From positions 248,001 to 312,000 of the forward strand of contig JANSXE010000004.1 of the NCBI GenBank assembly GCA_024743195.1: a stretch of DNA of 64,000 bases, given 5' to 3'. The translations under genes and the position numbers were made by a program. The stretch's first letter is position 1; each line of letters begins with the position of its first letter. Origin of the DNA: Alphaproteobacteria bacterium. Lineage in GTDB: Bacteria > Pseudomonadota > Alphaproteobacteria > UBA8366 > Aestuariispiraceae. The notes under the pieces were generated by a model. It did not search any database. It had not been told where the DNA came from and saw only the letters and a program-made list of their open reading frames with translations. Below, piece by piece: positions 3,069 through 46,240 of this stretch.

Positions 3069-3860
3069 ATGGGCGACATGTTGAAGGGCAAGGCGGCGCT
3101 GGTCACGGGCTCGACCAGCGGCATCGGGCTGGCGATGGCCCGCGCGCTGGCGAACGAGGGCTGTTCGGTGATGCTGAACGGTCTGGGCGACCCGGAGGAG
3201 CTGGAGCGCGTCCGCGCCGACCTGGCCGCCGAGACCGGGGCGGAGATCGGGTTCCACGGCGCCGACATGTCGAAGCCGGCGGAAATCCGCGACGCGGTCG
3301 AGAAGACGGCGGAGCGCTTCGGCGCGCTCCACATCCTGGTGAATAACGCCGGCATCCAGCACACCGATCCGATCGATCGTTTCCCGGAGGACAAGTGGGA
3401 CGCGATCCTGGCCATCAATCTGTCCGCCGCCTTCCACGCCACCAAGGCGGCGCTGCCGCATCTGCGGCGCGCCGGCTGGGGCCGCATCGTCAACACCGCC
3501 TCCGCCCACGGGCTGGTGGCGAGCGTGTGCAAGGCCGCCTATGTCGCCGCCAAGCACGGGATCATGGGCCTGACCAAGGTGACGGCGCTGGAGACGGCGG
3601 AGGAGCCGATCACCTGCAACGCCATCAATCCGGGCTGGGTGCGCACGCCGCTGGTCGAGGCGCAGATCCAGGCCCGCGCGGAGGAAAAGGGCGTGCCGGT
3701 CGAGGAAGAGGCGGTGGCGCTCCTGTCCGAGAAGCAGCCCTCGAAGCAGTTCACGACGCCGGAGCAATTGGGCGGGATGCTGGTCTTTCTCTGCTCGCCC
3801 GCGGCCGATCAGATCACCGGCGCGCCGATGATCGCCGACGGCGGCTGGACCTCCCAGTAG
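3069..3860 (+). CDS. bdhA: D-3-hydroxybutyrate dehydrogenase (SDR family)
   Basis: This 263-residue classical short-chain dehydrogenase interconverts 3-hydroxybutyrate and acetoacetate with NAD, a step of polyhydroxybutyrate and ketone-body use. Seen: the cofactor motif TGSTSGIG near the N-terminus, NNAG, the catalytic Ser in NTASAHG, and YVAAK. The family-specific stretch NPGWVRTPLVEAQI and a C-terminal GAPMIADGGWTSQ fit BdhA well. ATG 3069 is preferred to an upstream GTG at 3051 because the purine run GAAAGGGA at 3053-3060 is correctly spaced for it; ATG 3078 is also possible. It appears to be a single-gene unit, with non-coding sequence on both sides. Confidence 0.9.
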   Translation: MGDMLKGKAALVTGSTSGIGLAMARALANEGCSVMLNGLGDPEELERVRADLAAETGAEIGFHGADMSKPAEIRDAVEKTAERFGALHILVNNAGIQHTDPIDRFPEDKWDAILAINLSAAFHATKAALPHLRRAGWGRIVNTASAHGLVASVCKAAYVAAKHGIMGLTKVTALETAEEPITCNAINPGWVRTPLVEAQIQARAEEKGVPVEEEAVALLSEKQPSKQFTTPEQLGGMLVFLCSPAADQITGAPMIADGGWTSQ

Positions 3861-3916
3861 TCGGCGCCAGCGCGCGAGCGCGCCTATTCCGGGGCGCGCA
3901 GAAAACCCGCATCGCA

Positions 3917-3949
3917 TTAACCCTTTGTTAGGAAGGGGCGCGGTAATCT
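3917..3949 (+). promoter_or_regulatory. CtrA-like box and putative -10
   Basis: TTAA-N7-TTAG at 3917-3931 matches seven of eight bases of the CtrA consensus TTAA-N7-TTAA known in alphaproteobacteria. A TAATCT -10-like hexamer follows at 3944-3949. CtrA boxes over the -35 region are the usual activating arrangement. That this drives the RNA at 3956-4063 is inference. Confidence 0.4.
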
Positions 3950-3955
3950 GAGACC

Positions 3956-4063
3956 GTCAATTGAGACCCGTCTCCCCGACGGGGTCTTGCGGACCCCTTC
4001 CGCAAGTGACTCTCTTTGACCCCCTGTTCAACTTCGAGCCGCCCTCGGGCGGCTCGTTTTTTT
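3956..4063 (+). ncRNA. Candidate small RNA upstream of metY
   Basis: Predicted from structure only. After the putative -10 there is an imperfect hairpin (about 3964-3987, one bulge). Next is a perfect 8-bp hairpin with a CCCCT loop (3986-4006), then an unpaired C-rich linker (4007-4034), then a strong terminator hairpin and seven T. The linker ends in CCCCCTGTTCAACTT, the exact reverse complement of 4193-4207 in the metY leader. No known RNA family was recognised. It could instead be a processed or read-through 3' region of the bdhA transcript. Confidence 0.4.
4035..4063 (+). terminator. Strong Rho-independent terminator
   Basis: CGAGCCGCC pairs with GGCGGCTCG around a CTCG loop (4035-4056), followed by TTTTTTT (4057-4063). 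It reads on the plus strand only and ends either the bdhA transcript or the candidate small RNA. Confidence 0.9.
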
Positions 4064-4148
4064 CGCGCCGAATGCGAGCTTCCGGCGCGGCTGCACGGCG
4101 GGGTCGACCGCGGCGTGCGTATTCCACCATCGGATGGTTCGAAGTCAG

Positions 4149-4177
4149 TTGACGCCTATCGGACCCCCCGCTATCGT
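4149..4177 (+). promoter_or_regulatory. Sigma70-type promoter of the metY leader
   Basis: TTGACG (4149-4154), a 17-bp spacer and TATCGT (4172-4177) predict a start near 4184, about 175 nt before the metY start codon. The predicted RNA 5' end begins with TCAAC-GCAA-GTTGA, a 5-bp hairpin with a GNRA tetraloop that overlaps the 15-nt segment complementary to the upstream RNA. Confidence 0.5.
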
Positions 4178-4221
4178 TCGGCCCGTCAACGCAAGTTGAA
4201 CAGGGGGAACAGGGAACCGGG

Positions 4222-4289
4222 GGCGAACTCGGTCTCGCATTCCGACAGGGTCGCCGATGCGCATGACGCCGCGGCGGCCCTGTTTTTTT
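4222..4289 (+). terminator. Leader terminator with alternative hairpin (putative attenuator)
   Basis: The terminator is CAGGGTCGCC (4246-4255) pairing with GGCGGCCCTG (4273-4282), 10 bp with one G-U, then TTTTTTT (4283-4289), only 70 bp before the metY start. An alternative fold, GGCGA (4222-4226) with TCGCC (4251-4255) enclosing TCGG/CCGA, uses the terminator's left arm, so the two exclude one another. That is the layout of a transcription attenuator or riboswitch. I could not match it to SAM-II or another known aptamer. Confidence 0.55.
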
Positions 4290-4358
4290 GAGATGCGTCC
4301 GCGTTGCATCGCCTGCGTCCCTGCAACCATTCCGCAGTCGTCGCAGGAGCGCCGCGCC

Positions 4359-5678
4359 ATGGCCAACTCGCCCTATCTGAAGTTCGACACCCGCGCCCTG
4401 CACGCCGGCCAGCAGCCGGACCCGACGACGGGCGCGCGGGCCGTCCCGATCTATCAGACCACCTCCTACATGTTCGAGGATGTGGATCACGCGGCGGCGC
4501 TGTTCAATCTTGAGCGGCCGGGCCACATCTACTCGCGCATCTCCAACCCGACCGTGGCGGTCTTGGAGGAGCGCATGGCGAGCCTCGAAGGCGGCGTCGG
4601 CGCGGTCGCGACCGCGAGCGGGCATGCGGCCGTCTTCCTTGCGATCGCGACCTTGATGGGGCAGGGCGGCCATATCGTCGCCAGCCGCGCGCTCTATGGC
4701 GGCTCGATCAATCTGTTCCTGCACACGCTGCCGCGCTTCGGGATCACGGCGACGCTGGTCGACCCGCGCGACCCTGCGGCCTTCGAAGCCGCGATCCGGC
4801 CCGAGACGCGGCTCGTCTTCTCCGAGCTGATCGGCAATCCCAATCTCGACATCCTCGATATCGAGAATGTGGCGGAGATCGCCCATCGCCGCGGTCTGCC
4901 CCTGATGATCGACGCGACCTTCAACACGCCCTATCTGTGCCGGCCGTTCGAGCACGGCGCCGATCTGGTGATGCACTCGCTGACCAAATGGTGCGGCGGG
5001 CACGGGATCGTCATGGGCGGCGCGCTGGTCGACGGCGGGACCTTCGACTGGTGGGCCGAGCCGGAAAAGTGGCCGACGCTGACCGAGCCCTACGCCGCCT
5101 ATCACGGGATCGTCTTCGCCGAGGAGTACGGCCCCGCCGGCTTCATCATGCGCGCGCGTGCGGAAGGCGTGCGCGACTTCGGCGCCGTTCTGCCGGCGCA
5201 GAGCGCCTTCTACCTGCTGCAGGGGCTGGAGACGCTGCCGCTGCGCATGGAGCGGCATGTCGCCAACGCGCGCAAGGTCGCCGACTTCCTGGCCGGCCAC
5301 GAGGCGGTCGAGTGGGTCAACTATCCGGGGCTGGAGAGCCACCCCGACCATGCGCTGGCGCAGAAGCTTCTGCCCAAGGGGCCGGGCTCGATGCTGGCCT
5401 TCGGCGTCAAGGGCGGGCGTGCGGCCGGCGCGGTCTTCATCCAGTCGGTAGAGCTGTTCAGCCATCTCGCCAATGTGGGCGACGCCAAGTCGCTGGTGCT
5501 GCACCCGGCCTCGACCACGCATCAGCAGATGACGCAGGAGCAGCTCGCCGCGGCCGGGATCGGCGAGGACCTGATCCGCGTGTCGGTCGGGCTGGAGGAT
5601 GCGGACGATCTGATCGCCGACCTCGACCAGGCGTTGAAGCGCGCGGCCAAGGCCGTCGCCGCGAAGGCCGCGGAATAG
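4359..5678 (+). CDS. metY: O-acetylhomoserine sulfhydrylase / Cys-Met metabolism PLP enzyme
   Basis: This 439-residue enzyme belongs to the cystathionine gamma-synthase-like PLP family. The best guess is O-acetyl- (or O-succinyl-) homoserine sulfhydrylase, which makes homocysteine from sulfide. Seen: an N-terminal FDTRALHAGQQPDPTTGARA, the YSRISNPT word, the phosphate-binding ATASGHAA region, and the PLP lysine in HSLTKWCGGHG. The C-terminus has ELFSHLANVGDAKSL and HPASTTHQQM, both family hallmarks. The ATG at 4359 has an AGGAG site at 4345-4349; the frame stays open upstream to 4257 but that part is leader. Length fits MetY (about 430). Substrate choice within the family is not certain. Regulation is probably through the structured leader. 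Confidence 0.88.
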   Translation: MANSPYLKFDTRALHAGQQPDPTTGARAVPIYQTTSYMFEDVDHAAALFNLERPGHIYSRISNPTVAVLEERMASLEGGVGAVATASGHAAVFLAIATLMGQGGHIVASRALYGGSINLFLHTLPRFGITATLVDPRDPAAFEAAIRPETRLVFSELIGNPNLDILDIENVAEIAHRRGLPLMIDATFNTPYLCRPFEHGADLVMHSLTKWCGGHGIVMGGALVDGGTFDWWAEPEKWPTLTEPYAAYHGIVFAEEYGPAGFIMRARAEGVRDFGAVLPAQSAFYLLQGLETLPLRMERHVANARKVADFLAGHEAVEWVNYPGLESHPDHALAQKLLPKGPGSMLAFGVKGGRAAGAVFIQSVELFSHLANVGDAKSLVLHPASTTHQQMTQEQLAAAGIGEDLIRVSVGLEDADDLIADLDQALKRAAKAVAAKAAE

Positions 5679-46153: not shown

Positions 46154-46240
46154 GCGGGCGTGGCGAAATTGGTAGACGCAAGCGACTTAAAATCGCTTGG
46201 GGCTTGCCCCGTGCCGGTTCGAGTCCGGCCGCCCGCACCA
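46154..46240 (+). tRNA. tRNA-Leu (UAA)
   Basis: An 87-nt cloverleaf with encoded CCA. The acceptor stem GCGGGCG pairs with CGCCCGC. The D-loop holds TTGGTAGACG. The anticodon arm AGCGA-CTTAAAA-TCGCT carries UAA. A long variable arm, TGGGGCTTGCCCCGTG, marks class II. The T arm has GGTTCGAGTCC. It reads UUA codons, which are very rare in this GC-rich sequence. Confidence 0.97.

Follow-up and report, generated by a model that had tools for sequence, protein, structure and literature searches.

A candidate sponge RNA encoded upstream of metY and its predicted pairing with two sibling small RNAs in Alphaproteobacteria

The intergenic region in front of metY in this alphaproteobacterial genome probably encodes a sponge for sibling small RNAs (sRNAs), one of which has a CtrA-like promoter. 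Two RNA genes appear to lie there in tandem, RNA1 and RNA2, and the predicted 5' end of RNA2 is antisense both to RNA1 and to a SorX-like sRNA encoded elsewhere in the genome. We consider the pairing of RNA1 with RNA2 very likely to be functional. The original prediction had read the same complementarity as control of homocysteine synthesis by a CtrA-linked sRNA; a sponge acting on the siblings explains more than that reading, and the finding is best seen as sRNA-sponge control, not as a metY circuit.

In the window, i.e. the whole 64,000-nt stretch of DNA that was analysed, the gene order is 3-hydroxybutyrate dehydrogenase (3069-3860, + strand; TIGR01963, 334 bits, cut-off 307), RNA1, RNA2, metY, alpha/beta hydrolase and thioesterase-like protein. 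The metY gene (4359-5678, +) encodes O-acetylhomoserine aminocarboxypropyltransferase, a homocysteine synthase (NF006004, 729.5 bits, cut-off 636), and is 90% identical to that of Marivibrio halodurans, the nearest named relative found. The window also carries a DUF1192 gene (1422-1610, +), and in three other loci (L122, L126 and L127) a DUF1192-like coding sequence seemingly lies just upstream of RNA1 or RNA2 as judged by eye, which hints that a neighbourhood of older date has been conserved. No metabolite riboswitch (SAM or other) was matched by Rfam before metY, so a riboswitch in the metY leader was rejected; the only Rfam match above threshold in the 64 kb is a tRNA gene (46154-46237, +), and the eight matches up to E 10 within 3850-4380 are all to sRNA and CRISPR families.

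The 15-mer CCCCCTGTTCAACTT at 4020-4034 is, as originally predicted, the exact reverse complement of 4193-4207, and the two inverted arms lie 158 nt apart. Each arm is single copy in the 4.17-Mb genome, and a search of the same genome with the 499-bp intergenic region returned no second match. The chance of such a match had been put at 0.01, which is too low: at least one run of 15 nt with a loop of 30-200 occurred in 8 of 60 dinucleotide-shuffled 64-kb windows (70% GC), or about 0.13 per window. When only the 499-bp intergenic region was shuffled, none of 3000 trials gave such a run. Because the shuffled windows contain such runs, the length of the complementarity alone is suggestive and not decisive; on the sequence evidence, the decisive support is its conservation together with compensatory change.

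RNA1 is laid out as a CtrA-like box, a -10-like element, small hairpins, an open linker with the 15-mer and a strong terminator. TTAA-N7-TTAA is the consensus of CtrA, and the box TTAACCCTTTGTTAG (3917-3931, +), a putative RNA1 activator site that is conserved in relatives, departs from it by one mismatch. With at most one mismatch, the motif was present at 64 of 72 loci compared with 148 of 1440 mononucleotide shuffles; among the 72 loci, some show the same genome more than once and two or more are copies of a different sRNA. The eight box-less loci include two SorX-like sRNAs (L157 and L166) and three that were not identified (L160, L162 and L165); L015, L071 and L176 are RNA1 loci with two mismatches in the box. 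From this box we infer that RNA1 is CtrA-regulated. The -10-like TAATCT (3944-3949, +) would belong to the same promoter, and TAAT-type hexamers are similarly placed by eye in several relatives. RNA1 itself is predicted to be an sRNA of ~106 nt (3958-4063, +; estimated 5' end, +/- 5 nt), in which the seed CCCCCUGUUCAACUU (4020-4034, +) is mostly single-stranded (unpaired probability 0.52-1.0 in the predicted single-RNA fold) and runs directly into an intrinsic terminator (4035-4063, +). The original prediction of an unpaired linker before a strong terminator, within a CtrA-linked small RNA gene, thus agrees with a discrete-looking RNA1 that has a CtrA-like box and its own terminator.

By Rfam, RNA1 of the window scored 29.0 bits against BjrC1505 (RF02356), 26.7 bits against SorY (RF02651) and 21.1 bits against alphaR8/mmgR (RF00519 suhB), below the respective gathering cut-offs of 50, 111 and 41; it also matches ncS54 below threshold. 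The core of alphaR8/mmgR is UUUCCUCCCU, in place of which the window RNA1 has UUUGACCCCCUGUU, and it therefore falls outside that family. At the metY locus L078, the best of nine loci scanned, RNA1 reached 54.3 bits against BjrC1505, above the cut-off of 50, and four others of the nine matched at 28-41 bits; the cut-off was passed in 13 of 289 class genomes. What links the window RNA1 to this BjrC1505/SorY-related group is thus its shared position and core and not the score that it reaches itself. The core is of the anti-Shine-Dalgarno type, CCUCCCUG in most relatives and CCCCCUG in the window RNA1. R1 matches were obtained in 139 of the 289 class genomes, and many of these matches are to other CCTCCCTG sRNAs. 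The downstream gene is different in other families, where RNA1, accompanied by RNA2 or alone, precedes a DUF1465-like ORF and not metY (L252, L254, L255, L174-L176 and L184; Pfam-tested in L252 only). Upstream of RNA2 in L123 and L125 (genomes G176 and G276) we saw by eye an RNA1-like sRNA with a TTAA-type box, GTGAAGCCTCCCTTCC and a terminator; it has lost the GTTCAAC seed, while the match between RNA2 and the genome's own SorX-like sRNA persists.

RNA2 is preceded by a sigma70-type promoter, TTGACG-17-TATCGT (4149-4177, +), found where the original prediction had put it. A TTGAC -35 with a spacer of 16-18 nt precedes RNA2 in 31 of the 34 non-redundant pair loci counted (14 further loci and the mis-anchored L010 being left out); TTGAC is absent from the scanned frame in L178, L179 and L197, the first two of which were anchored on a wrong AACAGG. 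The promoter score reached p<=0.05 against mononucleotide shuffles in 21 of these 34. The conserved -35 and spacer therefore suggest that RNA2 starts at the antisense sequence itself, in line with the earlier placing of the second arm at the 5' end of the leader. The resulting RNA of ~100 nt (4190-4289, +; 5' end estimated at 4186-4191), both a sponge candidate and the upstream part of the metY leader, would begin with the antisense seed AAGUUGAACAGGGGG (4193-4207, +) and end at an intrinsic terminator with a 13-bp outer stem and a U tract (4244-4289, +), 69 nt before the metY start. Across loci, the terminated RNA2 measures roughly 60-105 nt, the T-run rule having put a few ends in the wrong place. 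In the class sample of 289 genomes, R2 matches numbered 37 at E<=0.01 and 20 at E<=1e-3, and many of the weaker matches printed resemble bare terminators. Within the RNA2 terminator, an ATG that follows an SD-like ACAGGG shares the reading frame of metY (4257-4358); a read-through transcript could yield from it a MetY protein 34 residues longer.

The first 16 nt of the window RNA2 are open in the predicted fold; within the arm, the first 12 of 15 bases are open and the last three are unpaired at 0.46, 0.01 and 0.06. Co-folding in silico, the check suggested with the original prediction, favoured RNA1 and RNA2 together by 26 kcal/mol over the two apart. Two other parts of that prediction did not hold: the GCAA-capped hairpin at the leader 5' end is absent from the predicted fold, and refolding of the attenuator by pairing is not seen there. 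The pairing site stops 36 nt short of the terminator stem, and the predicted RNA2 fold contains no antiterminator on which pairing could act.

The RNA1/RNA2 pair is present in many alphaproteobacterial families. At metY loci it recurs in Tistlia (L049), Pelagibius (L059 and L095), Kiloniellaceae (L057 and L112), Ferruginivarius (L051) and others, and the two RNAs adjoin in 11 genomes (G000, G070, G079, G163, G189, G206, G266, G271, G297, G303 and G321). The spacing of the arms varies from 76 to 336 nt, and extends to ~850 nt in L074 and about 2 kb in M. halodurans. The window has GTTCAAC in RNA1 and GTTGAAC in RNA2, and joint changes are seen as GTCTAAC/GTTAGAC (L127), GTCCAAC/GTTGGAC (L021), GTTAAAC/GTTTAAC (L185), ACTCGG/CCGAGT (L074 and L077) and GTTAAC/GTTAAC (L057). 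Using the 14 gap-free pairs among 34 non-redundant ones (alignment A4, no bulge needed; L121, which repeats L034, left out), we found 88.1% of cells paired versus 83.3% after shuffling, with 0 of 500 shuffles reaching that value. Covariation was 0.186 versus 0.102 (0/500), and both sides had changed at 6 of the 15 pairs (3/500), while further pair types were unremarkable (50/500). Sliding the register by 1-3 nt left only 21-50% paired. The arms thus change together in relatives, the comparison that the original prediction had proposed; conservation of one arm and not the other, without compensation, was named there as counter-evidence, and what we find is conservation of both arms with compensatory changes.

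Duplex energies point the same way. Cognate RNA1:RNA2 duplexes averaged -26.8 kcal/mol versus -22.5 kcal/mol for swapped ones (34 pairs; 0/20000 permutations), a comparison that favours cognates in that some RNA2 sites were picked by duplex energy; the L074 RNA2 was set by hand, and L189, L174 and L194 (no RNA2 recognised) and L184 and L192 (no core found) were left out. The cognate RNA2 was the best or tied-best single partner for just 3 of the 34 RNA1s, because GC-rich RNA2s bind many RNA1s well. A scan of the 350 nt downstream, independent of the RNA2 motif, gave a significant partner (p<=0.01) at 31 of 53 RNA1 loci versus 0 of 34 SorX-like control loci; these were 53 of 55 and 34 of 35 loci, L191 having no core and L187 and L279 too short a region, and L074 (distant RNA2) and L071 (wrong core taken) were counted as failures. 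Twelve RNA1-type loci (f13, f124 and others, L074 not counted) had no partner within 405 nt (p>=0.4). All counts treat related genomes as independent. At three loci with RNA1 before metY, L177-L179 (G209, G083 and G305), RNA2 is of the form AGT(C/T)TGACAGGTTGAGG, and its trailing GAGG could, with a two-base bulge, base-pair with CCUC of the core.

RNA2 has a second predicted partner. In the window's own genome, a SorX-like sRNA with hairpin CGTCTCCCAGACG and core CCTCCCTGTTCAACTTGCC lies on another contig (G000:C5:4640-4696, +; locus L241). The hairpin is typically followed by GTGAAGCCTCCCTGTTCAACTTGCC, and of 45 genome handles searched, 37 have it among loci read; the sRNA and RNA1 have a common core, and their genes are unlinked. 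Matches to SorX (RF02784) at E<=0.1 were obtained for 3 of 5 SorX-like loci scanned, the best being 44.1 bits (L166), short of the gathering cut-off of 46.6. For the copy in the window's genome Rfam gave nothing at E<=0.1, so the name SorX-like refers to common sequence. An alphaR8 sRNA has been reported beside an FGase gene, and by eye none of the L241 ORFs is one.

When the two siblings were compared in 23 genomes, RNA2 paired better with the SorX-like sRNA than with RNA1 in 14 and worse in 8 (G331 and G163 have the same coordinates and are probably one genome; only G331 is among the 23). For the 10 gap-free and distinct genomes (alignment A5), 92.0% of cells were paired (0/500 shuffles), and covariation was 0.313 versus 0.198 (0/500). 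All 10 genomes have a pair at the variable position 8, with three pair types among them; the weaker measures were both-side pairs (13/500) and further pair types (253/500). Cognate duplexes averaged -27.0 versus -24.1 for swapped ones (0/20000 permutations). In L074, L077, L118 and L193, position 8 of RNA1 is mismatched with RNA2, and the SorX-like sRNA has there a C that pairs with the RNA2 G. At position 7, RNA1 has C, the sibling U and RNA2 a G that pairs with both in G271, G206 and G027, a pattern that is suggestive only, as G336 and G337, with U in both siblings, have the same RNA2 G. In G138, G176, G098 and G148, RNA2 stands before metY with no adjacent RNA1, and a SorX-like sRNA with CCTGTTCAACTTGCC is present and fits RNA2, which argues that RNA2 is kept for the sibling family and not for RNA1 alone. 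In summary, RNA2 co-varies in sequence with the SorX-like sRNA at least as well as with RNA1, and complementarity to the seeds of sibling sRNAs that is kept in evolution, the feature by which a sponge is recognised, is found in RNA2.

A rather unlikely alternative, although the strongest of those considered, is that RNA2 is the metY leader, that RNA1 (or the SorX-like sRNA) controls metY in trans by binding its leader, nascent or complete, and altering termination or stability, and that terminated RNA2 is a by-product. Among the 20 R2 matches at E<=1e-3, metY lies in the fetched flank of 13, including the four genomes with no adjacent RNA1. The gap from the terminator to the metY start is as short as 32-43 nt (L004, L050, L074, L105 and L109), and of 27 regions after RNA2 scored for a separate metY promoter, 3 reached p<0.1, no more than shuffles give; in these lineages metY is thus probably read through from the RNA2 promoter. 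StsR/UpsM, as described in the accessible part of PMC8307010, is a precedent for action both in trans and in cis. However, metY is missing within 1.5 kb at 6 of the 20 (L127 and L129-L133), the remaining one, L119, running off its contig, and no metY occurs within about 6 kb of RNA2 in L127 and L133 (wider loci L257 and L252; genomes G297 and G206). RNA2 converges on a Pfam Hsp20 gene in L252 and on Hsp20-looking ORFs in L257 and L129, and so is not a leader in these three. The distance between pairing site and terminator stem and the fold without a switchable antiterminator also speak against it. We therefore rejected metY-specific attenuation as the sole role of RNA2, which occurs without metY nearby, and the purpose first proposed, control of homocysteine synthesis, is unsupported as stated, given these loci, a second sRNA that pairs about as well or better, and a fold that shows no attenuator refolding. 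A cis role of RNA2 on metY, with control of metY, is possible, and in metY lineages RNA2 may serve as a sponge and as an attenuated leader at once.

The roles could also be reversed, RNA2 being a regulator with its own mRNA targets and the CtrA-linked RNA1 the sponge that removes it, which we regard as improbable. Pairing is symmetric, and the consensus-like promoter and open 5' seed of RNA2 are features of many trans-acting sRNAs; yet it is RNA1 that has the core common to the target-regulating sRNAs SisA (PMC12559287) and SorX (PMC8625941), going by the portions of these articles that were available, and co-variation of RNA2 with two unlinked siblings better fits a common sponge. It is most improbable that the inverted arms in the window reflect a single read-through transcript with a long hairpin, or terminal inverted repeats of a small mobile element. 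The mobile element, raised in the original prediction, fails as neither the arms nor the intergenic region have a second copy in the genome; the case for a long transcript is weaker, since RNA1 and RNA2 are each provided with a conserved promoter-like sequence and terminator of their own. The variable spacing and the SorX-like partner on another contig argue against both.

The sponge reading can be put as a sequence of steps. RNA1 and RNA2 would be distinct small RNAs. RNA1 would belong to the BjrC1505/SorX/SorY group, have a core of the anti-Shine-Dalgarno type, be activated by CtrA and act in trans. By analogy with SisA, RNA1 and its SorX-like sibling would block ribosome-binding sites with CCUCCCUG. 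RNA2, transcribed from its sigma70-type promoter and ending at its own terminator, would begin with ~16-20 nt antisense, in both siblings, to the core end and the GUU(N)AACUUG after it; this match to both seeds is the reason for proposing sponge action. RNA2 would anneal to the seeds of RNA1 and the sibling and withdraw both from their mRNA targets, with decay of the duplex being probable. In many genomes RNA2 would be the attenuated 5' part of metY transcription, so that metY promoter activity would set the sponge dose. The analysis itself establishes the sequences, their conservation and co-variation, and the promoter-like and terminator anatomy; expression of the two RNAs, titration, the direction of regulation, CtrA dependence and the link to methionine supply are all what we infer from these. 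More tentatively, and with rather less than even confidence, we propose an undescribed two-RNA module in which a CtrA-timed sRNA and a tandem sponge, often an attenuated metY leader, would couple the activity of sibling anti-SD sRNAs to cell-cycle state and to methionine supply, the G of RNA2 serving siblings with C or U.

Several known systems resemble parts of this arrangement. The StsR-UpsM pair of Rhodobacter sphaeroides involves sequences and genes other than those of RNA1 and RNA2. It likewise consists of two pairing sRNAs, one of them derived from a 5' leader (that of dcw), and its effects occur both in trans and in cis, but StsR is under RpoHI/RpoHII control according to the part of the article consulted (PMC8307010). 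RNA1 and the SorX-like sRNA resemble the group of BjrC1505 (RF02356), SorY (RF02651), SorX (RF02784) and suhB/mmgR (RF00519), which have a core around CCUCCCUGUU and then a GC-rich terminator; the window RNA1 reaches the gathering cut-off for none of its matching families. SorX is described, in the text available, as a 3'-UTR-derived sRNA of Rhodobacter (PMC8625941). BjrC1505 is named in a table only of PMC6337395, and the string 1505 is absent from the examined text of a Bradyrhizobium sRNA paper (PMC5082802). In the open-licence literature searched, whose scope excludes the original BjrC1505, SorX and alphaR8 articles, we found no description of a paired RNA2 for this group, of RNA2 itself, or of a CtrA box on BjrC1505-type sRNAs. 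CcnA of Caulobacter is, like RNA1, a CtrA-linked small RNA; unlike RNA1 it acts by a CCCC loop on ctrA/gcrA mRNA and is encoded at the replication origin, and the accessible text describes no such partner RNA (PMC8959179). QrrX of Vibrio cholerae is, like RNA2, one sponge aimed at the conserved pairing domain of siblings, Qrr1-4, but it is activated by its LysR neighbour QrrT and lies between vca0830 and vca0832, and the part of the article consulted does not describe a tandem sibling (PMC9732341).

CCUCCCUG-core sRNAs are widespread in Alphaproteobacteria, and few have a known target or antagonist. A co-evolving partner RNA is a direct handle on them, as the RNA2 seed tells which sRNA bases matter. 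If the CtrA box works, the cell-cycle master regulator would be linked to this sRNA family in many lineages. The closest known system is CrfA of Caulobacter crescentus, a sponge of the alphaR8 sRNAs SisA-D, which, like RNA2, pairs with the conserved core of sibling CCUCCCU-type sRNAs, as far as the available text describes it (PMC12559287). From the same partial source, CrfA pairs by an internal G/A-rich stem loop with UUUCCUCCCU, whereas RNA2 would pair by its 5' end with CCCUGUU(N)AACUUG; unlike CrfA, RNA2 is in tandem with one sibling, often before metY, and one sibling has a CtrA-like box. If the sponge reading is true, sponge control of CCUCCCU-type sRNAs is not confined to Caulobacter and arose with different binding geometry.
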